From: a virus
DNA: 36,392 bases
IMG/VR virus record: IMGVR_UViG_3300044648_000104
Location: 1-36,392 of that record
Strand: one strand, 5' to 3'
Position 1 is the stretch's first letter, and each line of letters begins with the position of its first letter. Shown one piece after another: positions 10,003 to 36,392 of the stretch. A model generated the notes under the pieces. That model was not told the DNA's origin, searched no databases, and saw only the letters and a list, made by a program, of their open reading frames with translations. The translations under genes were made by a program, and so were the position numbers.

Positions 10003-11175
10003 ATGCCGCAAATTCATGACACTGATAACTATACAGTTCCCGGGGGAATTAAGTTATTTTTCAACGATGGAACTGGCGAACGCGACCTGGGCAACATGGT
10101 CGATGTGTCGATGGCTCGGGAGTCCGAAGACCTCGAACACTATACGAACCGCCCCGGCGCTCGTGTGAAGGACAAGATCATTGCTCTGAGCGAATCGCTC
10201 GCCATCGATTTCTCGTTGGATGAGCCGGTGATCGAGAACTTCGTGCTGTTTTTCAAGGGTGATACGGTTGTGAACCAGTCCGCTGGTACGGCTGTGTCTA
10301 CCGATCAGGAAGTAACTTTGGGTGCGGATAGCGCCTTCGCGAGCTTAGGCAAGCGTGGAGCGATCACTTCGTACTCTGCACGTAACTTCTTAGATTACGT
10401 GTATATGTTCGACGGTGTCTCGACGTACACCAACCACAGTGCCGAAGCTGACACTGCTGCTGGTACGCCGTTCACCATCCTTGCCGATGCTGGCGACAAG
10501 CTGTATTGCGGTAAGGATACCAAGTTCAACAGCATCAATATCGACGTAGCCACGGCTGCGGTCGGTTATACGGCTGTGACTTGGGAGTATTGGGATGGAT
10601 CTGCTTGGTCTGCATTGACCGTTGGTGGAACTGCCGACTTCTCTGCCGATGGAACTGGGCTTATCACGGTTCCTGGCGATTGGGCGAAGACCACGGTGAA
10701 CGGAATCAATGCGTACTGGATCCGAGCACAGCAAACCGCTGCTTCCCCTGCAACACCGGCCACGCTGAACAGCATTGGTCGTGGTGCGCTGGTGGAAAAT
10801 ACGGACGTTGCGTATGACATCGGGTCTACTTCGGTGGATGCGAAGGTTCGTGCGCTCTCTGGCTCGACCCTTGTTCTATCGGGGCAAGAGATCAAGGTGA
10901 CCTACACCTATCCGACTTATGCTTCGCAGATCACGAACATTGCGAAGGTGGGCAGCATCGAAGGATCTGCTCGGTTGGAAGTGCATCCTCAGAGTGGTCG
11001 TGGGTTGCAGTTCGATATCGAAATTCCGAAGTGCCAGATCAAGGCAAACGGTGACCTGTCCTTGAACGATCAAGAGTTCATGGCGATCCCGTTGTCACTC
11101 GTCGTGTTGGATGATACGGAGAATACTCCGACCCATCCTTACGGTCGCGTGATTATGTACGACGCGCAAGCGTAA
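10003..11175 (+). CDS. Major tail tube protein with an inserted beta domain
   Basis: A strong ribosome site (GGGAGGAG, 9990-9997) precedes the ATG at 10003. The 390-residue product would stack in rings to form the tail tube. The N-terminal part (residues 1-90, GGIKLFFNDGTGERDLG then EDLEHYTNRPGARVKDKII) and the C-terminal part (about 310-390, SARLEVHPQSGRG; FMAIPLSLVVLDD) look like tail tube sequence. Between them, about residues 125-262 form an extra domain with the signature WEYWDGSAWSAL, then DWAKTTVNGINAYWIRAQ, a module found in several phage tail proteins. It probably projects from the tube surface. Strong RBS and a hairpin after the gene fit high expression. Confidence 0.88.
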   Translation: MPQIHDTDNYTVPGGIKLFFNDGTGERDLGNMVDVSMARESEDLEHYTNRPGARVKDKIIALSESLAIDFSLDEPVIENFVLFFKGDTVVNQSAGTAVSTDQEVTLGADSAFASLGKRGAITSYSARNFLDYVYMFDGVSTYTNHSAEADTAAGTPFTILADAGDKLYCGKDTKFNSINIDVATAAVGYTAVTWEYWDGSAWSALTVGGTADFSADGTGLITVPGDWAKTTVNGINAYWIRAQQTAASPATPATLNSIGRGALVENTDVAYDIGSTSVDAKVRALSGSTLVLSGQEIKVTYTYPTYASQITNIAKVGSIEGSARLEVHPQSGRGLQFDIEIPKCQIKANGDLSLNDQEFMAIPLSLVVLDDTENTPTHPYGRVIMYDAQA

Positions 11176-11207
11176 TGGGCGGCTGGGATAAGTAGGTAAA
11201 CCGGAAA

Positions 11208-11240
11208 TAGCCCCGTTGCTAGGCGGGGCTAGTTCCTTTC
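11208..11240 (+). terminator. Hairpin after the tail tube gene (weak terminator or attenuator)
   Basis: A perfect 8-bp GC-rich stem (TAGCCCCG at 11208-11215 with CGGGGCTA at 11224-11231) and an 8-base loop. The following bases (GTTCCTTTCCCC) are pyrimidine-rich but lack a real T run, so it may end only part of the transcripts. It would lower expression of the chaperone and tape measure relative to the tube protein. Confidence 0.7.
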
Positions 11241-11278: not shown

Positions 11279-11692
11279 ATGGACGGGCTCTTCTCACTGT
11301 TAAACGCAACAGAGTACCAAGGCTTGGTGATTAAAGAATGGAACATCGTGCAGTTTTCAAAGCTGACTCGGGTTCTTCAGGTAATCGCAAAGGAGTACAA
11401 AGACAAAAATATCGGATGGGAAGGATTTTCAGAGACTCTCGTAAAGGCAGACGGCAGCGGAATCGCAGGCGTCTCAACTCAAATGCTAGAGTTTCTAAGT
11501 CCGTTCGTTGAACAAGCTCCTTTGCTCATCAAGGTCTCCTGTAACGCGGACGATAAGAAGATGGAGTCGTTGTCTTACACAGACGGCGTCATCCTTCTCG
11601 TGCTTATTCTCAAGGCGAACTTGGAGCACCTGAATAGTTTTTTCGGCAGGATCGTCGCCCCAAGCGCGGCAGCGACGACGGTTTCGATTTAG
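11279..11692 (+). CDS. Tail assembly chaperone, short (zero-frame) product
   Basis: AAAAGGATTCACATC precedes the ATG at 11279. The 137-residue helical protein (FSKLTRVLQVIAKEYKDKN; TDGVILLVLILKANLEHL) lies between the tail tube and tape measure genes, the fixed place of the tail chaperone pair (lambda G and GT). It would coat the tape measure during tail assembly and is not expected in the finished virion. Reading ends at a TAG at 11690, but a slippery run and hairpin at 11638-11678 can send some ribosomes into the -1 frame. The sequence is not close to lambda G; the call rests on position, frameshift signal and helical content. Confidence 0.82.
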   Translation: MDGLFSLLNATEYQGLVIKEWNIVQFSKLTRVLQVIAKEYKDKNIGWEGFSETLVKADGSGIAGVSTQMLEFLSPFVEQAPLLIKVSCNADDKKMESLSYTDGVILLVLILKANLEHLNSFFGRIVAPSAAATTVSI

Positions 11693-12027
11693 CTATCGAA
11701 CTCCTCTCAAGCCGTGGGCACAAGCTCACAGCGTTGTTGAGTGAGTACCCGATCTCGACAGTGAACGCGCTCGCTAAGGCCGCTCAAGCGAATCGAGCGT
11801 ACGACACAATAGCTCTTTCTGGCGCGGTCGCTGCCGGGGCTGTGCATGCAATCGAAGCAGGGTTCTCTGGCAAAGCGCCAAAGGCTCTGAAGAATTATCA
11901 GAAGGCCATCCTGAATTCGATCAAGAAGGCCCAGTCGAAGGGACAAGGACAGAAGGCCGATGCCGACACCTTGCTCTCAGGGTTCGGAGGTTTAGCGAAG
12001 ACGGAGAGACGCAGTGGCAGAAATTAG
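11279..12027 (+). CDS. Tail assembly chaperone, long product by -1 frameshift
   Basis: The -1 frame is open without a stop from the slippery site (T TTT TTC, 11638-11644) to TAG at 12025-12027. Slipping there gives about 122 residues from the zero frame plus about 127 more, near 249 in total. The added part starts RQDRRPKRGSDDGFDLAIEL and contains TVNALAKAAQANRAYDT and APKALKNYQKAILNSIKKAQ, so it is basic and helical. In lambda the matching T part binds the tape measure protein. No start codon with a ribosome site sits at the head of the downstream frame; the first in-frame TTG (11734) lacks one. The end overlaps the tape measure start by 14 bases. Confidence 0.8.
11638..11678 (+). promoter_or_regulatory. 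Programmed -1 ribosomal frameshift signal
   Basis: The slippery heptamer T TTT TTC (11638-11644) is in the right phase with the chaperone zero frame (Phe-Phe codons 11639 and 11642). After a 7-base spacer, TCGTCGC (11652-11658) can pair with GCGACGA (11672-11678) in a perfect 7-bp stem with a 13-base loop. Heptamer, spacing and hairpin are the known elements of -1 frameshifting in tail chaperone genes. Confidence 0.82.
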
Positions 12028-20511: not shown

Positions 20512-22380
20512 ATGGCAGACGTAATTTCTTTAGTAAAAGTGTTCGGTGGCTCGGCGTCTTACATTGCCGACCACGAGGCAAACTATACCACCATCGAGAG
20601 CGCGATCAACGCACTGTACGCTACGGTGCAAGGGACGGCCACGAGCGGCAGCGTTGATCTTCGATTGAACGAACTCTACGACCGTAACGGTATCTTCGGC
20701 AAAGCAAGCTATAAACCGGTCGCGGCTACGCTTAGCCCGTCTCCTTACAATCTAACAGTAGCAGCCGGTGCTTATTATGATGGTACGTCCTTCCGTAAGG
20801 CGAACTCTTCAACCCTGATTCCCTTATTGTCGTTTAGTACAGGTACGCTCTACGTTAATGTACCGACAGGTGGTATTCCTACAGTAAGCTCTTCGCCTAC
20901 CGCCGACACAGTGTGGCAGTTCGCATGGAACGATACGACCCATGTGGTGTCTTCGGTCGTCTTCTATGACACGACAGCGGAGATCCTGCTCGATGGCGAC
21001 GACTACGCGGAGTGTATCGATGGCTATGATGGCCTCGCGGCTCGCCTCGATGCAATTGCTTCCGGTGGTGGCTTCTTAGCGCAAGAGTACGCAGAAGATA
21101 GCGCCAACCATTCCGGTTTGAACTTCGCGTACTTCGGCGGCAACGTCCACAATGACAACGTCGTGACGACCACGGTCGATGGGACGGTCGCTCTGACCGA
21201 CACGACAACGAACTATATCGAAGTGAATATCAGTACAGGTGCGGTGACGGCCAACACCAGCGGCTTCACAGCGGGTCGTATACCGTTGTTTACTGCGGTG
21301 ACTTCGGGCGGGTCGATCACAGTGGTCACGGATAAACGGACCTGGGCTCGGGGTGGAGGCTCAGGGTCTCACGCACAGAATACGGATGTGGGTACAGACG
21401 CCTCGGAGTTTAAGCTACTCCGTACCGTGACCGGCACTCCATCCAGCGATGCCTTCTGGAAAGTGGAACGAGGCACGAGTCCCGATGTATCGATCAAGTG
21501 GAACGAGACACTCGACAAGTGGCAGTTCACCAACGACGGTTCGACGTTCTCTGACCTCGGCTCTGGCAGCGGTGGAGATCCAGGCTCGAACGACGATATG
21601 ACGCAGTATGTTCCACTGGACGACCCTGACCTCATCGAAGAGCGTCTTGCTATCAGCACCGATGGTGCATACGTACAGAACAACATTGGCCCAAGTGGGT
21701 CAGCATACATCACTTCCGGTGATGCTCCTCAAGGTGTCACAGCCCTCGTGTTGCGCGTGGCGTTTTGGGATACGACTCCCGGCTCCGGTGTGAACGTTAA
21801 ATTTAAGAACTTCAATGCGATTGCTTCACCTCTGAAAGCGTTCACGGTGTGGGGTGGAACGGCTGAGCATAGCGGGTTCCTCTCGACACTGGTGATCCCT
21901 GGAACGGACGGCACAGATATCGGCTACGAGTCACTCGTCACAGCTTCGGGTGCGGGGACAGCGAACGTGCGCGTGTGGCTCATGGGTTACTTCAAGAAGG
22001 TGACTGGTGTTGGTACACAGACGAAAGCCTTCTCAAGCACCGGCAACGCTTGCCCTTCGGCAACGGCGACCAACTTCAACAAGACCGGCTTCGTCAATCG
22101 TGGCCTGTGCTACTTGCTGAAGCTGACTGAGACGGGCGGTACTTCGACTGGTACCTATGATGTCGCGATCTACTCGAAGGATACATTCCTCGCGGCAGAT
22201 CTCCTGTATCAAGCGACCGGCATTGACTCGACAGCCAACAGTCGTATCTACACCGACCGGCTTCCGTTTATGTACTTGGACGATGATGCGACGAGCGAGT
22301 TGCACATCAAGATTACTAACAACGACGGCGCACAGGCGATGACCTTCACCTTTGCCCTTACCTTGGAGCAGTTCTCATAA
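20512..22380 (+). CDS. Tail fibre protein
   Basis: AAGGAGCAAC precedes the ATG at 20512. The 622-residue product begins with an attachment-like region (SYIADHEANYTTIESAINAL), followed by domains known in phage fibres, such as GYDGLAARLDAIASGGGF and TTNYIEVNISTGAVTANTSG with FTAGRIPLFTAVTSGGS. The middle (residues about 285-350) has the KVERGTSPDVSIKWNETLDK type strand seen in fibre proteins. The C-terminal third is beta-rich (FKNFNAIASPLKAFTVWGG; SRIYTDRLPFMYLDDDATSE). It probably trimerises and reaches the host surface. No chaperone or endosialidase motif was seen. The stop overlaps the first tailspike start. Confidence 0.8.
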   Translation: MADVISLVKVFGGSASYIADHEANYTTIESAINALYATVQGTATSGSVDLRLNELYDRNGIFGKASYKPVAATLSPSPYNLTVAAGAYYDGTSFRKANSSTLIPLLSFSTGTLYVNVPTGGIPTVSSSPTADTVWQFAWNDTTHVVSSVVFYDTTAEILLDGDDYAECIDGYDGLAARLDAIASGGGFLAQEYAEDSANHSGLNFAYFGGNVHNDNVVTTTVDGTVALTDTTTNYIEVNISTGAVTANTSGFTAGRIPLFTAVTSGGSITVVTDKRTWARGGGSGSHAQNTDVGTDASEFKLLRTVTGTPSSDAFWKVERGTSPDVSIKWNETLDKWQFTNDGSTFSDLGSGSGGDPGSNDDMTQYVPLDDPDLIEERLAISTDGAYVQNNIGPSGSAYITSGDAPQGVTALVLRVAFWDTTPGSGVNVKFKNFNAIASPLKAFTVWGGTAEHSGFLSTLVIPGTDGTDIGYESLVTASGAGTANVRVWLMGYFKKVTGVGTQTKAFSSTGNACPSATATNFNKTGFVNRGLCYLLKLTETGGTSTGTYDVAIYSKDTFLAADLLYQATGIDSTANSRIYTDRLPFMYLDDDATSELHIKITNNDGAQAMTFTFALTLEQFS

Positions 22381-24545
22381 TGGCTATTAAGTATATGGAT
22401 CCAACCAACGGGAACGATGCGAACGACGGGAGTTCGTTTGCTCTCCGCTTCAAGACGTTCACGTCAGGAGCAACGGCTGCGCGTATTGCCCCCGGCGATG
22501 TTATTCGTGTCATGCGGTCTCCTAACCCCACGAGTGCGGGGATCAACGCGACATTCACGAACAAGAGCATTACTGTCTCGCTCGCCTCGGCGTTGAACGT
22601 CCTGATTACCAACTGCGACTCGGCCTGGACAGCGTCAGCCAACGTAACCTGTACAGCGGATACGGCAGTGTTTAGAACCGCAACAGGGGCGGCGAAGCAA
22701 GCGATTGCGGCAGGGTTCACCACAGGCAAGGTCGCATACTTCGATCTCGGCTCAAACCAAGACTATTCAGCGTACCAAGGTATTACCTTCTGGTACCTCT
22801 GTAGCGCGAACACGGCGGCGAACGTCTTCTCAATTCGTCTCTGCTCAGACGCAACAGGAGATGTGACGGTTGACAACTTAGCGATTACCTTCTCCGTCAT
22901 AGCGAACCAATGGGTGCCGGTGCATATCGATAAGGGTTCAGCCCTCGGTGCATCTATTCGTTCTATCGCTTTGTACGCAGACGTTGACCCAGGCACGGTG
23001 AACGTGAACCTCGATAACATCAACACGACGAAAGCTGTGGGCGCAGACTGCCTGACACACCTGACCTTGATCGGAAAGAATAGTGGAGTAAACGAAAACT
23101 GGTTTGCAGTCCGGTCGATCAACGGCACGACGGTTTTGATTGATGCGTCTCCGAATAATACTTCTTCCTTACTCACTCAGAGCCGTGGGTATAGTGGAAC
23201 AACGGAAACGGTACCGCTCTATTTACGACTGTGCCACACGACTGCGTTTAGCACGGCGGGACAATTCGCTTCGATAGTTCAGGACTCTGGCACAGCGGGG
23301 AATGTCATTACGTTCAGCGGCGGGTGGGACACGACCGATATGACAACACAGGACGGAGAGACATGGTTTGATGGACGGACTGGCGTATTGGTTGGTTTAA
23401 GTTTAAACGCAAGATCCTACATCAATTTCGAGAAATGTCATTGGACTCGTTATGACCAGGGAATTTCTACCAGCGGTAGCAACAACATTCGGTTCCTCGG
23501 CACAACGTATTTAAGCCATAACTTAACAGCAAATCTCTATATGGTAAACGGTTTTGATAATTACTTCGAGAAGATGGTGTTAGATTGTTCTTCTATCTAC
23601 GGAGTATATTTTGGAAATAATTATAGACTTGAGTTCGGTGAGCTACTTTCTCGTGGAACTGGCGCGGCCAATCTTGCGGAGAACGGTATCAGTTTTAACC
23701 AACCCTGCACAGGGATAAAGATCAACACCCTCACCATCCAGAATTGTGACAGTCATGGAGTTAGTTATAATGTCTCAACACCTAACACAGATATATCTAT
23801 CGGCACGTTGGTCATTAAAGATTGTGGTGGGACAGGGATGTTTATAGGTGACCTCTCGCAAGCGAAGTGGCGAATCGGAACGGTTACTATTACCGATAAT
23901 AGTTTATTCGCACTCTCTTTGAGTGGTGCGGCAGATATCGTAATTGGCTCATTGACAACCAGCGGTAACACGAGTGGATGTATTTCAGTACCAAATGAAA
24001 TTCAGTACATGGATATAGCTATTCTCCAATCCAGCATCGCAGAGGCTACTAAGGTAGCGGTTACGGCACCAGGCACCTCGATCTGGGGACCGGCTTATCT
24101 ACGCTTTGAGAACTATCTCGGAGTGGCGAACGATCACCGGATCTTCGTGGCTGGCGGCGATGTGGGGATGATTGTCAGTGAAACAACGGTGCGTCACACG
24201 GCAAGTGGAGTCGCGTGGAAGATCTCACCAAAGAACGCCTTCTGGGTTTCATCATTCCCATTGGAGTTTCCAGTTGGAAGAGTGTGGGTGCAAGCAGGAG
24301 TATCGAAGACGATCTCATTATGGATGCGACGGACGAACACCGCGCTCACTGGTAGGTTGGTTGTGAGACTTCCCGGTGGAAGCCATGTGACCGATGTGTC
24401 TTCCAGCATCACAGTCGGAGCCGATACGTGGGAGCAAGTCTCGGTGAACTTCACGCCGACACTCAGCGGGATTGCAAAGATCGAAGCGCATGCCTTCGGA
24501 GGCACGACGCACTCACTCTATGTTGATGACCTCAGTGTTTCGTAA
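22380..24545 (+). CDS. Tailspike-like protein, right-handed beta-helix, copy 1
   Basis: The ATG overlaps the fibre stop. The 721-residue product begins with a beta-helix lead-in (DPTNGNDANDGSSFALRFKT; ATAARIAPGDVIRVMRS), a jelly-roll-like insert (AYQGITFWYLCSANTAANVF; PVHIDKGSALGASIRSIALY), and a central beta-helix with coils such as GIKINTLTIQNCDSHGVSYN and DISIGTLVIKDCGGTGMFIG. The C-terminal 150 residues form a carbohydrate-binding-like sandwich (ETTVRHTASGVAWKI; WMRRTNTALTGRLVVRL; HSLYVDDLSVS). It likely binds or cleaves host surface sugar, but no catalytic pair can be assigned. Its two ends closely match copy 2 while the middles differ. Confidence 0.82.
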   Translation: MAIKYMDPTNGNDANDGSSFALRFKTFTSGATAARIAPGDVIRVMRSPNPTSAGINATFTNKSITVSLASALNVLITNCDSAWTASANVTCTADTAVFRTATGAAKQAIAAGFTTGKVAYFDLGSNQDYSAYQGITFWYLCSANTAANVFSIRLCSDATGDVTVDNLAITFSVIANQWVPVHIDKGSALGASIRSIALYADVDPGTVNVNLDNINTTKAVGADCLTHLTLIGKNSGVNENWFAVRSINGTTVLIDASPNNTSSLLTQSRGYSGTTETVPLYLRLCHTTAFSTAGQFASIVQDSGTAGNVITFSGGWDTTDMTTQDGETWFDGRTGVLVGLSLNARSYINFEKCHWTRYDQGISTSGSNNIRFLGTTYLSHNLTANLYMVNGFDNYFEKMVLDCSSIYGVYFGNNYRLEFGELLSRGTGAANLAENGISFNQPCTGIKINTLTIQNCDSHGVSYNVSTPNTDISIGTLVIKDCGGTGMFIGDLSQAKWRIGTVTITDNSLFALSLSGAADIVIGSLTTSGNTSGCISVPNEIQYMDIAILQSSIAEATKVAVTAPGTSIWGPAYLRFENYLGVANDHRIFVAGGDVGMIVSETTVRHTASGVAWKISPKNAFWVSSFPLEFPVGRVWVQAGVSKTISLWMRRTNTALTGRLVVRLPGGSHVTDVSSSITVGADTWEQVSVNFTPTLSGIAKIEAHAFGGTTHSLYVDDLSVS

Positions 24546-24554
24546 AGGAGAATC

Positions 24555-26741
24555 ATGGCAACGTTTTATTTAGATCCTGAAGGTGGAAACGACGCGAACG
24601 ATGGGACCAGCTTTGCCCAACGCTGGAAGACTTTCAACTCCGGTGCGACAGCGGCTCGTGTGGCCCCTGGCGATGTTATTCGTATCAAGGCGAGTCCTGA
24701 GCCCACCAGCTTAGGGATCACTGCGACCTGGACGAATAAGAGTCGTACGGTGACTCTCGCCTCGGCGCTCAATGCGTTAATCACCGACTGCCAAACAGCA
24801 TGGACAGCGTCAGCCGACGTGACCGCGACCGCCGATACAACCATCTACAGAGCTTTCCCAGGTGATGAAGGAGCGGCCCCTAAGTCGGCTAAGCTCGCGA
24901 TTGCCTCAGGCTTCACGACCGGTCTCGTGGCGTACTTCGCGCTTGGAGGCGCACAGGACTACAGCGCGTACCAAGGCATCACATTCTGGGTGTATGTGTC
25001 TGCTGCGCTCGCAGCCAGCACACTCTCGATTAAGCTCTGCTCGGACGCAGCCGGGGCAACTCCTGTTGACACGTTCGCGATCCCAGCTATTGCCTCAACA
25101 GAAGGTGTGGGCTCGTGGTTTCCTGTCTACGTCGATAAAGGCTCTGCTCTCGGTGCCTCGATCCAATCTATCGCACTCTACGCCGACTTGGATCCAGGGG
25201 CTATCGATGTGTACCTCGATAACATTGCGACGACCAAAGCGGCTGGCGACGACTGCCTAAACTACAACACCATGATCGGGAAGAACGTGGATGGGGAAAC
25301 GTGGTGGCAGATCTTGAAGATCAACGGGACGACGCTCACATTGGATAATGCCCCAGGTCTTCCGACGTTTTCTATGACGACAGGACAACGTGGGTACACC
25401 GGCACGACTGAGACGGTCTCGACATGGATTCGGAAAACATTCCGTACGGTGTCTCCACAATTTAGTTTCCAGGCTGTGGCAACGATTCAAGAAGCTGGCA
25501 CGGCGGGAAACCACACAAGTTATCTCGGTGGGTGGAATCCTACCGATATGAGCACGCAGACCGGAGAGACCTGGTTTGATGGTGGAAACGGTTGGGGTAC
25601 GGGGCTGGTAGGCAGCGGTTACACCACCTTAGATAAACTATGCTTCACTCGGTACGCTATTGGCTTCCAGTGTGGGGGCTCGTTCTACAACTCCCTCGGG
25701 ACATTGAAGGTATCGAACTGTTGCAACATAGGAATTGATTTAGCTGGGTGTTCCAACGTCACAGCCACGTTGCTGTATGCGGTGGCCTGTGAAAACTACG
25801 GCATCAATTTCTACACCTCACAATCAAACATCGCAGCGATTAAGTCGTACAGCCACGGCAATACGACTATCGGGTACGGAGTCTGGGTTGCCAATGCTTC
25901 ACTTAATGTCAAGATCGGTACCATCGATTCCCACAATAACGCTAAAGATGGATGGAGTGGCACTGGTGTTGAGTTCAGACGCTTCCGTTTGACCTCTGTT
26001 ACCTGTAGAGACAACGGTCGATACGGGTTTACACGCGATCATGGAAGCAGTTCTGATTTTGTGATTGACACGCTGACATGCACCGACAACGGTGAGTACG
26101 GGGCTTTCCTTTCGAGTGGAGAGACACTGATTAAGTCTTACACTTCGAGTGGGAATGTGACAGGAAGTATTCTCGGTGGGACTCCTGGCAGCTTAGCCCA
26201 CGTCCACACGATTCTTAAAAGCTCAATGGCCGAAGCCACGAAGTTTCAAGCGAATGCTGCGAATAACGGTCTTCTGCAAGGTGGGGTGCGCTTCCGAAAC
26301 TACAACAGCACGGCGAACGATCATCGATTCTATATGGCGGGATCAACCGCACGAATCGATGCAGAGACGACTGTGCGCCACACGGCTAGTGGGCTCGCGT
26401 GGAAGATGCAGCCACTCACGAGTGATTGGATCAGTAGTGATTACCCGTTGGTTCTTCCCTTAGCTAAGCTCGCGGTCAGGGCCAACGCGCTCGTCACCGT
26501 GAGTGTGTGGATGAGGCGCACGAACACCGGCATCACCGGCAAGCTCTTTACTGCCGGGGGAGTCCTCAATGGTGTCGCTTCTGATGTGAGTAACTCGATC
26601 ACGGTTGCGGCAGACACTTGGGAGAAGGTTACGATCTCTTTCACGCCGACCGAGGCGGGAGTTGTAGAGATCCAAGCACATGCGTATGGAGGGACCACGT
26701 ATACCTTGTACGTCGATGACGTAGAGTGGTCGCAAGCATAA
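24555..26741 (+). CDS. Tailspike-like protein, right-handed beta-helix, copy 2
   Basis: AAAGGAG at 24544-24550 precedes the ATG at 24555. The 728-residue product matches copy 1 at both ends: DPEGGNDANDGTSFAQRWKT, ATAARVAPGDVIRIKASP, AYQGITFWVYVSAALAASTL and KGSALGASIQSIALYADLDP at the front; ETTVRHTASGLAWKM, WMRRTNTGITGKL and TYTLYVDDVEWS at the back. The central beta-helix (LKVSNCCNIGIDLAGCSNVT; NVKIGTIDSHNNAKDGWSGT) is clearly different. Copy 2 has about 20 extra residues near 140-230. It should attach to the virion in the same way as copy 1 but may see another receptor. No catalytic residues are evident. Confidence 0.82.
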   Translation: MATFYLDPEGGNDANDGTSFAQRWKTFNSGATAARVAPGDVIRIKASPEPTSLGITATWTNKSRTVTLASALNALITDCQTAWTASADVTATADTTIYRAFPGDEGAAPKSAKLAIASGFTTGLVAYFALGGAQDYSAYQGITFWVYVSAALAASTLSIKLCSDAAGATPVDTFAIPAIASTEGVGSWFPVYVDKGSALGASIQSIALYADLDPGAIDVYLDNIATTKAAGDDCLNYNTMIGKNVDGETWWQILKINGTTLTLDNAPGLPTFSMTTGQRGYTGTTETVSTWIRKTFRTVSPQFSFQAVATIQEAGTAGNHTSYLGGWNPTDMSTQTGETWFDGGNGWGTGLVGSGYTTLDKLCFTRYAIGFQCGGSFYNSLGTLKVSNCCNIGIDLAGCSNVTATLLYAVACENYGINFYTSQSNIAAIKSYSHGNTTIGYGVWVANASLNVKIGTIDSHNNAKDGWSGTGVEFRRFRLTSVTCRDNGRYGFTRDHGSSSDFVIDTLTCTDNGEYGAFLSSGETLIKSYTSSGNVTGSILGGTPGSLAHVHTILKSSMAEATKFQANAANNGLLQGGVRFRNYNSTANDHRFYMAGSTARIDAETTVRHTASGLAWKMQPLTSDWISSDYPLVLPLAKLAVRANALVTVSVWMRRTNTGITGKLFTAGGVLNGVASDVSNSITVAADTWEKVTISFTPTEAGVVEIQAHAYGGTTYTLYVDDVEWSQA

Positions 26742-27199
26742 TGGCACTTCCGGTAGACCTCAACACATTAGACTACGATCACCTTGGCATGCCGTTTTGC
26801 CAGGGTCCGTCGAATGCTGCCGACATTCTCACCACGATGGATGTGGATGATATGGGGGCACCGTTCGTTGCAAACGATACCTCCCAGGCGTCCGTCCTTG
26901 GCTCGTACAGCCTCGACCGACTCGCTGATGGGTTCCCCTATGCAGACACCGCAAGCGTGGACACAGGGACGCTAGACTACCTCGGAGACGGCTTTCCGTT
27001 CGTCACCAACGTCTCGGGAACGGGAGATATTATCTTCGTGGCCGGGACTCCGGTCATTACGATCTCAGCCCCCTCCGTCAAAAACATTGGTTTAGAAAGG
27101 ACTTTCCCGCTCAAGAGGGCAGAGGAGATTGACTCAAATAGCCCACTGGCGCACGTTTTCCCCTACGTGGCTGTGCAAGATACCTCCTTGATTCCATAA
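26741..27199 (+). CDS. Small repeat protein, LDxDxLGxPF type
   Basis: The ATG at 26741 overlaps the tailspike TAA; an in-frame GTG 15 bases earlier is less likely. The 152-residue product contains four copies of a short unit spaced about 20-24 residues apart: LDYDHLGMPF (10-19), MDVDDMGAPF (33-42), YSLDRLADGFPY (56-67) and LDYLGDGFPF (78-87). A related unit is at the end of the gene at 19976. The remainder is a short beta-like tail. Repeats of this kind suggest binding of several copies of a partner, perhaps the spikes, but this is inference. It ends the tail-tip gene series. Confidence 0.72.
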   Translation: MALPVDLNTLDYDHLGMPFCQGPSNAADILTTMDVDDMGAPFVANDTSQASVLGSYSLDRLADGFPYADTASVDTGTLDYLGDGFPFVTNVSGTGDIIFVAGTPVITISAPSVKNIGLERTFPLKRAEEIDSNSPLAHVFPYVAVQDTSLIP

Positions 27200-27216
27200 G
27201 GGTTTATACGTATACT
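27188..27216 (+). promoter_or_regulatory. Sigma70-type promoter candidate
   Basis: TTGATT (27188-27193), a 17-base spacer, and TATACT (27211-27216), close to the consensus pair TTGACA and TATAAT. The predicted start point near 27223 lies about 50 bases before the ATG of the XhlA-like gene. The surroundings are A+T-rich, including the palindrome TATACGTATA at 27206-27215. Confidence 0.6.
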
Positions 27217-27234
27217 TATAACTGTACGGGGCTG

Positions 27235-27263
27235 CGTGTCTCGTATACCTATGACTAGACACG
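27235..27263 (+). promoter_or_regulatory. Inverted repeat in the leader of the XhlA-like gene
   Basis: CGTGTCT (27235-27241) pairs perfectly with AGACACG (27257-27263) across a 15-base loop. It lies just after the predicted start point and just before the ribosome site (GAGGCACGAG, 27263-27272). It could be a protein-binding operator or an mRNA hairpin that delays translation. Confidence 0.45.
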
Positions 27264-27273
27264 AGGCACGAGA

Positions 27274-27615
27274 ATGGATCTATCTAACATGACACCTGAA
27301 AGCCTGATCCTCTCAGTATCCAAAGACGTAGAAGCTCTCACCAAAACCGTACACGATTCCGCGATGCTGTTTCGCGAGAATCAAGCCATGCTCAATCAAG
27401 TGCTTCGCGATATGCAAGAGCACAAGTCTCTCGACGCGAAGATTCATGCCGACTTCACCACGATGCAGACACACGTCTTCGGTACACCGCAAGACGCCGG
27501 TCTCGTCACCAAGGTCCACGATCTCAACGGGAAAGTTGGAAGTATGTGGAAGCTCTTGTGGGCCATCATTACCGCCGCAGTCACAGGTGGTGGAGCACTT
27601 GCCTACTTCAAGTAA
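27274..27615 (+). CDS. Coiled-coil protein with C-terminal membrane anchor (XhlA/holin-like)
   Basis: GAGG at 27263-27266 and the ATG at 27274 follow a probable promoter, so this gene may be expressed apart from the tail genes. The 113-residue product has a long helical N-terminal part with heptad spacing (SVSKDVEALTKTVHDSAMLF; NQAMLNQVLRDMQEHKSLDA) and one hydrophobic segment near the end (residues about 91-111, MWKLLWAIITAAVTGGGALA). That layout, coiled coil then one membrane helix, is that of XhlA-type lysis proteins, though no sequence match can be shown. It may be a holin, antiholin or membrane-associated lysis factor. The alternative is a tail-associated membrane contact protein. Confidence 0.65.
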   Translation: MDLSNMTPESLILSVSKDVEALTKTVHDSAMLFRENQAMLNQVLRDMQEHKSLDAKIHADFTTMQTHVFGTPQDAGLVTKVHDLNGKVGSMWKLLWAIITAAVTGGGALAYFK

Positions 27616-35037: not shown

Positions 35038-35192
35038 TCTTGTCCCCACCAATAGATAATCAGAGCGCCGAAAATATGTGTGATACCGAGCCAAACGAAC
35101 AGCGTCAGGTACCCACCCTTGAAGGTCCACAGGAAGGCAGACAGCGTGAACCAATACCAGGCGTACATCATAATGTTGAACCGTTTCATCAT
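35034..35192 (-). CDS. Small membrane protein (52 aa)
   Basis: The first ATG overlaps the polymerase stop (ATGATGAAA; either Met can start). The product has two aromatic hydrophobic segments (MMYAWYWFTLSAFLWTF, residues 8-24, and YLTLFVWLGITHIFGALIIY, 28-47) with a short turn between, so it should span the inner membrane twice. Early location suggests a host takeover or membrane-attachment role, but there is no direct evidence. Confidence 0.62.
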   Translation of the reverse strand: MMKRFNIMMYAWYWFTLSAFLWTFKGGYLTLFVWLGITHIFGALIIYWWGQE

Positions 35193-36392
35193 CGGCCACT
35201 CCATGACGTGCCGACCGTGGGCTCCCACACCAACGGCACGCGCATAACGTTGTCTAAGAACTTTGGATCTTCCAGATCTCGCTTGAGATCTTGGATCTGT
35301 TCAATGTTGGTAATGTCACCGTCCACTTCGTCATGCACCGTCAGACGCATCGTATCGAAGTAGCCGCCGTCATACGCCTTCACCAAAGCCAGCTTCATAA
35401 TGTCCGCAGCCGATCCTTGGATCAAACGGTTCAGTGCCACGTAGCACTTCCGTTTCATTTCAGGGTCAGTCCAATCGAAGCGCCTGCCCTTGAGTGTGAT
35501 CGTGGGGATACCGCAGGCAGCTTTCCTTTTTTCTCGGTCTCGGAGTTGTTTCGCGGCGGGAAAATACTGGTTATACGTCGCGAACATTTCTTCTGCTTCT
35601 TTTTGTGGGACTCCCATCTCTCTAGCGAACTTGGGTACTCCCATGTTGTACAGGGTGCCGAAGTTGATGTTCTTGGCTTTCTTTCTCGGGAGAAGTCCTT
35701 TGAGGACTTTCTCTGCGACAAGCTTGTGGAAATCGACCGTTGGGTTTTCATTGTATTCCTTGATTAACTCTTCGTTCTCCGAGTAATGAGCAAAGAGACG
35801 AAACTCAATTTGACTAGCGTCGAGAGAAGCAAACTTTTTCCCTGGTGCCGGGATGATGAGTGAACGTAGTAAGTACTCTGGGCCAATCTCAGCCTCCTGG
35901 TTTTCCGTTGACCATATCTGTTGTGGCTGTGCGCCTGCTCCCATACCCGCGCACGAGAAGCGACCGGACACGGCTCCCTTGGATCCCCCTTCACCGTCTC
36001 GGTCTCGCAATTGGTTCAGTGTGTACCGGAGGATCGGGGTCGCTGGATCGATGTTGTCAACCCAAGGCACGAGGAACGTGTTCAGTAACTTGTGTAGCTG
36101 CTTCGCCTTCTGCACCAGCTTCGGGAACGGATGCTCCATCCCCTTGATGAATTTCTTCCCGAAGTGTGGGGAAGACTTCACCATATCGACTTGACACTTC
36201 CAGCAACGGAAAGGCTTCTCACCTTCGTACGCCGGGAATGCTTCTTCACAGGTCACCGTGGGGCATTTCCAGTTCCACGGATAGCGAATGCCTAGCTTGT
36301 CGCACTCGACTTGGACTTGTTTGGGTGAATTGTAATTAACGCTCCCCAACGTCCGCTCAACCTCTGCCAGATCCTTACGTGCAAGATCGATC
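35189..36392 (-). CDS. DNA polymerase I, family A (N-terminus outside the window)
   Basis: The frame stays open to the right edge (upstream residues read DLAEVERTLGSVNYNSPKQV, typical of Pol I before the thumb), so the gene is cut. The visible part has motif A (LDASQIEFR; catalytic Asp and Glu), motif B (RKKAKNINFGTLYNMG, with Lys, Phe at the 762-equivalent position, and Tyr) and motif C (TVHDEVDGD; catalytic Asp-Glu). The standard Tyr after motif A Asp is Ala and the Gly after the motif B Tyr is Asn. Between NSPKQ and the thumb is an insertion with Cys29-x4-Cys34 and Cys49-x2-Cys52 (counting from TTG at 36349), a likely zinc ribbon. It is the main phage replicase. The 3'-5' exonuclease, if any, lies outside. 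Confidence 0.9.
   Translation of the reverse strand, partial: IDLARKDLAEVERTLGSVNYNSPKQVQVECDKLGIRYPWNWKCPTVTCEEAFPAYEGEKPFRCWKCQVDMVKSSPHFGKKFIKGMEHPFPKLVQKAKQLHKLLNTFLVPWVDNIDPATPILRYTLNQLRDRDGEGGSKGAVSGRFSCAGMGAGAQPQQIWSTENQEAEIGPEYLLRSLIIPAPGKKFASLDASQIEFRLFAHYSENEELIKEYNENPTVDFHKLVAEKVLKGLLPRKKAKNINFGTLYNMGVPKFAREMGVPQKEAEEMFATYNQYFPAAKQLRDREKRKAACGIPTITLKGRRFDWTDPEMKRKCYVALNRLIQGSAADIMKLALVKAYDGGYFDTMRLTVHDEVDGDITNIEQIQDLKRDLEDPKFLDNVMRVPLVWEPTVGTSWSGR

Follow-up and report, generated by a model that had tools for sequence, protein, structure and literature searches.

Two adjacent beta-helix spike genes with conserved ends and a diverged middle in the tail region of a virus known from environmental DNA

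Why would a virus keep, side by side among its tail genes, two spike genes that resemble each other at both ends and differ in the middle? The question is raised by IMGVR_UViG_3300044648_000104 (IMG/VR), a virus known from environmental DNA alone, of which positions 1 to 36,392 form the 36,392-nt stretch analysed here (the window). The window starts within an apparent major capsid gene (1-761, assigned by eye) and ends within a family A DNA polymerase gene (35189-36392), and since it appears to be cut at both ends and the contigs of sister viruses reach 52-68 kb, the virus genome is probably incomplete. No plasmid match was found.

The gene pair and its surroundings

The two spike genes, their conserved and variable blocks and the genes directly before and after the pair lie on the + strand. 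Spike A (22380..24545, 721 aa) and spike B (24555..26741, 728 aa) are intact ORFs of the same architecture, and the initial annotation, which took them for tandem paralogs of 721 and 728 codons, was correct in this respect, with 350/755 positions identical in BLASTP (46%, 550 bits). In blocks of 30 alignment columns, the identity amounts to 52-77% over residues 1-230, 33-57% over residues 231-348, 17-41% over residues 349-571 and 46-62% over residues 572-717. At the DNA level, six direct-repeat blocks of spike A have partners 2175-2208 bp downstream with 71-84% identity, four of them at the 5' end (22410-22663, 22758-22793, 22911-23080 and 23318-23374) and two at the 3' end (24180-24223 and 24321-24352), while there are none between 23374 and 24180. 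These blocks map the borders of the conserved parts: D1, D5, D2 and D3, together with the amino-acid profile, give the conserved 5' block of spike A (22410..23374), matched as a direct repeat by 24585..25582 in spike B, and D4 and D6 give that core of the C-terminal sandwich which is conserved at the DNA level (24180..24352), matched by the C-terminal block of spike B (26364..26539). The variable beta-helix middle occupies 23424..24059 in spike A (codons about 349-560) and 25626..26258 in spike B (codons about 358-568).

Taken alone, the two middles are 31% identical, compared with 27.8 +/- 4.3% for shuffled middles, and the significant local match within the middle is limited to its last 82 residues (E 4e-5). 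Spikes A and B are confirmed as paralogs whose ends are conserved and whose middles are close to background, in agreement with the differing middles that had been proposed. The same proposal spoke of exchanged middles; the variability stands, but exchange overreaches for these two genes, where identity falls as a ramp and a sharp border is absent.

The pair is located in the tail/adsorption region, downstream of the genes for the major tail protein, the tape measure and a tail protein. The tail module of the window runs in the order head-tail adaptor, major tail protein (with an Ig-like domain), tape measure, tail protein and a 622-aa gene (20512..22380), which is a candidate adaptor and shows 57-74% identity in four sister viruses. 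Two short ORFs (11279-11692 and 11734-12027) sit between the tape measure and the major tail protein; tail assembly chaperones made by frameshifting are usually encoded between these two genes. The stop codon of the 622-aa gene overlaps the start of spike A (TAATG), a ribosome-binding site (AAAGGAG) follows directly after the spike A stop with the start codon of spike B 10 bases past that stop, and the spike B stop overlaps the ATG of the next gene (26741..27199), again as TAATG. This chain of translational coupling signals supports co-expression of both spikes.

The product of the gene at 26741..27199 contains four [LM]D..x..PF motifs. A gene with the repeated motif [LM]D[YW].x..[AG]xPF was found downstream of the spike at 21/72 loci, upstream at 1/72 and in 0/72 shuffled controls; it accompanies spikes in many viruses that are otherwise unrelated, and at one locus (L012) the partner-gene motif is fused onto the spike C-terminus. 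The motif gene could possibly encode a partner or chaperone of the spike.

Predicted architecture of the two spikes

No Pfam or PHROG family matched spike A or spike B above the cut-off, and Pfam Beta_helix was found in 14/42 homologs, as was NosD (14/42). The AlphaFold2 models, which were built on 42 sequences, reached pLDDT 90.9 and pTM 0.88 for spike A, and pLDDT 89.0 and pTM 0.85 for spike B. In the spike A model, a beta-helix start (residues 1-56) is followed by an inserted CBM-like sandwich (57-225), the resumed right-handed beta-helix (about 226-570) and a C-terminal sandwich (about 585-721), and the spike B model has the same domain layout. The best PDB match of both is the AlgE4 epimerase (Z 29.4 for A and 27.2 for B, 2.7-2.8 A over 301-303 residues), and both also match the glycoside hydrolase BT_1002 and the CBA120 TSP2, Sf6, Dettilon (6f7k) and P22 tailspikes, with Z of 19-29 for AlgE4, Sf6, CBA120 TSP2 and P22. 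The sandwich of both spikes matches the carbohydrate-binding modules CBM4 and CBM16. Judged by models and structural matches, both spikes have the right-handed parallel beta-helix (pectin-lyase-like) fold, defined as a solenoid in which parallel beta coils of about 22-27 residues are stacked.

The conserved N-terminal block had been regarded as a mounting system common to both spikes, a view that the models do not support. Structural alignments begin at residue 1-3 of the spike models and at residues 122-330 of the P22, Sf6 and CBA120 spikes, past the anchor domains of these proteins. No separate N-terminal virion anchor of the P22, Sf6 or CBA120 type is present in the spike A or spike B model, XD/TD hinge domains were likewise not seen in either model, and the two spikes have no PHROG match that passes the cut-off. 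As modelled, the conserved block is the beta-helix start with an inserted CBM-like sandwich and not a separate mount, and attachment could proceed through the helix start or through an adaptor. Since a separate anchor is absent and another attachment route is possible, we retain the view that these proteins work like tailspikes, and claim no formal tailspike membership.

In the models, the two middles are one fold with diverged sequence, both being a right-handed beta-helix, which is the outcome that the initial annotation had named as speaking against its own proposal. The same fold is compatible with different specificity, since known tailspikes of a single fold bind different glycans; in P22-like tailspikes, receptor-binding modules of different specificity have the same fold without sequence similarity (PMC8432352). 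Conserved catalytic residues are not evident in the variable middle across the family.

Multi-spike clusters are known from Ackermannviridae of the CBA120 type, with TSP1-TSP4, for which module swapping among the TSPs was inferred (PMC8432352). Like these clusters, the present locus has beta-helix spike genes next to each other, in which structural parts are preserved and receptor-binding modules can be exchanged. Unlike the CBA120 spikes, which are hinged via distinct N-terminal domains (XD1-3, TD1), the two spikes of the window have one common N-terminal block that is the helix start, and their C-terminal sandwich is conserved too. The right-handed beta-helix is shared with P22, Sf6 and HK620 (Lederbergvirus; spike A vs Sf6 Z 26.0, vs P22 Z 21-22), whereas these phages have one spike gene each and an N-terminal head-binding domain, and here there are two genes and the domain is missing. 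A full-length homolog of matching predicted architecture is found in the Methanosarcina virus MetMV (AZF89914, 783 aa, 42-45% identical to spike B), although it is single copy and unannotated, with a middle made of about 24-residue coils from DNA tandem repeats. Among BFVD models, the top hit of spike A has 783 residues (TM 0.88) and is very likely this MetMV protein. The Methanosarcina host of MetMV is a prediction (PMC7164591), and for this reason no cross-domain transfer is claimed.

Sister viruses and the adsorption cassette

A sister virus (L010/L061/L063, 64-kb contig) has its tail module in common with this virus and a spike pair at the matching place; the adjoining tail genes are 64-73% identical and the tape measure about 35%. 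Spike B and its counterpart B' in L010 are 76% identical in the N-terminal part, 62% in the C-terminal part and 30% in the middle, and their middles are colinear (28.6% over 210 residues, E 1.7e-21). In the tree of residues 1-335 (24 rows), spike A groups with A' of L010 (95/91) and spike B with B' (100/97), and window A and B as sisters are rejected (p-AU 0.006), while an earlier shorter alignment (residues 1-225) had not rejected them (p-AU 0.23). Because the copies group by slot and the sisterhood of A and B is rejected, the duplication is most likely older than the split of this virus from the L010 virus, and both copies were kept in the two. The best matches of the spike A middle do not include L010_A, and L010_B is matched at E 2e-8. 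Replacement of the A-slot middle between window and L010 is suggestive and was not adopted, as a saturated tree of six middles leaves normal descent unrejected (p-AU 0.25).

Three further relatives have the upstream 622-aa gene at 57-65% identity. The slot behind it holds a single spike, a partner gene and a tail fibre in L066 (a 5.5-kb fragment); in L062 it holds three paralogs of a different type in tandem (340-364 aa) together with a fibre of the L066 kind, and in L064 a single unrelated 303-aa protein. Given these differing contents behind a conserved upstream tail gene, the slot is an exchangeable adsorption cassette. At another locus, the genes L011:1491-4271 and 10157-11215 flank the cassette and show matches to the N-terminal and the C-terminal part of one 1309-aa tail protein family (phrog_4271), as if the cassette lay inside a split tail gene.

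We consider it probable that the pair represents two siphovirus-like tail spikes, duplicated before the sister split and kept in an exchangeable cassette, with constant ends and a diverging, glycan-facing helix. Both copies go back to one spike gene and have been retained side by side right after the conserved tail gene. The ends, namely the helix start with its CBM-like insert and the C-terminal sandwich, would stay constant to serve folding, assembly and attachment, and the central beta-helix, as the surface that meets cell glycans, would diverge or be replaced. Both spikes would be carried on the virion, and their middles would bind or cleave surface polysaccharides with a specificity set by the variable helix of each; it is plausible that A and B differ in this specificity and that one virion would have two. 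Since the B and B' middles are still colinear, the middle seems to change by divergence in place, and perhaps also by exchange with other viruses.

The copies might instead be redundant or otherwise divided, with the middle under relaxed constraint, or with one copy binding the receptor and the other being structural. Beta-helix coils do tolerate change, the colinear B and B' middles fit divergence in place, and the middle is a near-identical coil array in about a third of the homologs. However, two viruses whose neighbouring tail genes have diverged to about 64-73% both retain A and B as intact, full-length genes, and the slot of the sisters holds other multi-paralog or fibre genes, so that we regard this division as unlikely.

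The wider family and biological meaning

A single-protein query for related loci returned nothing and alignment queries were needed; searches that covered IMG/VR, phage records and genomes yielded a family of 101 non-redundant members, spread over 95 records that mostly belong to uncultivated viruses, and no Pfam or PHROG entry matches it end to end. Among cultivated relatives, the Variovorax phage VPv81 encodes a protein homologous to the ends of the spikes. The median pairwise identity is 47% in the N-terminal part, 28% in the middle and 38% in the C-terminal part, so conserved ends with a variable middle appear to be a family-wide trait, not peculiar to A and B. Two or three copies, counted within the fetched flanks, are present in at least 5/95 records (the window, L010, L011, L079 with three, and L102). 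Sequence comparison demonstrates recombination between end and body within the gene for other members, namely L033 and L036, which are 94% identical in the C-domain and 63% in the N-domain; they are sisters by the C-domain, the N-tree rejects this sisterhood (p-AU 0.0002) and their flanks are largely unrelated. Domain shuffling in phages is concentrated in receptor-binding proteins, tail spikes and fibres (PMC10684548), and, as in that general survey, the spike family shows shuffling between end and body.

In 16/50 homologs, tandem repeats of a 69-75 bp DNA unit make up the middle, so that each repeat corresponds to one beta-helix coil. Such arrays include L037:9091-9765 (9.6 copies, 92% matches), L003:13044-13481, L023, L039, L024 and L013, and the related L023 and L039 have 7.5 and 4.4 copies, suggesting that spike length varies by whole coils. 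Where MetMV-like members have middles of high identity, this stems largely from coil repeats that they have in common, and it was not taken as a sign of exchange.

The spike module is found behind an apparent signal peptide in L015, L027 and L034 (by eye), and behind a 60-90 aa leader (HGGYWFGHLP...) in L013, L016, L025, L026, L038 and L041, from which the N-terminal leader seems to be swapped among family members. In view of the apparent signal peptides, family members need not all be virion parts, and in L022 the spike gene lies between portal and scaffold. Together with the missing anchor domain, these cases speak for A and B being beta-helix proteins of another kind, in the virion or the infected cell, such as a head decoration or a secreted polysaccharide-degrading enzyme, and not fixed spikes. 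A and B themselves, however, have no signal peptide, come last in the tail module and are coupled to tail genes, and in L062 and L066 a tail fibre occupies the slot, which makes such a role quite improbable.

Switching between A and B through their repeated ends had also been suggested for this genome, and the sequences argue against it. The longest exact DNA word common to A and B is 15 bp, third codon positions are saturated over the full pair (likewise in the L010 and L011 pairs) and no conversion tract was found in the pairs of the window, L010 and L011; on these grounds, a recent conversion or recombination event between the two copies is rejected for now. No inverted repeats of at least 18 nt occur in 22300-27300, and no match to a resolvase-type invertase (PF00239) or a reverse transcriptase (RVT_1) was obtained in the 36-kb window of this partial record. 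Within this scope, neither the inverted repeats and serine invertase that mark phase variation by inversion nor the reverse transcriptase that marks a diversity-generating retroelement was found. Although the conserved-end direct repeats lie about 2.2 kb apart, other family members have recombined between end and body and the corresponding slot of L066 contains just one spike, a device by which the repeated ends allow deletion or exchange of the A and B middles within a lineage, in the manner of antigenic variation, is very improbable given the above and the clustering of A/A' and B/B' by slot, and recombination-based switching is unlikely at present.

Returning to two tail spikes kept side by side, the absence of separate anchors raises the question of how one tail accommodates two near-interchangeable spikes. 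Since A and B have like N- and C-terminal ends and no private anchors, they might compete for common adaptor sites, and one clone would then consist of mixed virions (A-only, B-only, mixed, or with A/B hetero-oligomers). We hold this to be rather unlikely; if true, mixed spike composition would provide several host specificities without DNA switching. The pair provides a new instance of a strategy already known, that of recognising more than one type of cell surface. To the established pattern of multi-spike phages it contributes a widespread family of spikes that had not been described, with about 100 members in 95 records, one of them from a virus assigned to Methanosarcina. The series of five viruses, in which the slot has two, one or no beta-helix spikes, opens the way to study duplication, retention and replacement of receptor-binding genes.
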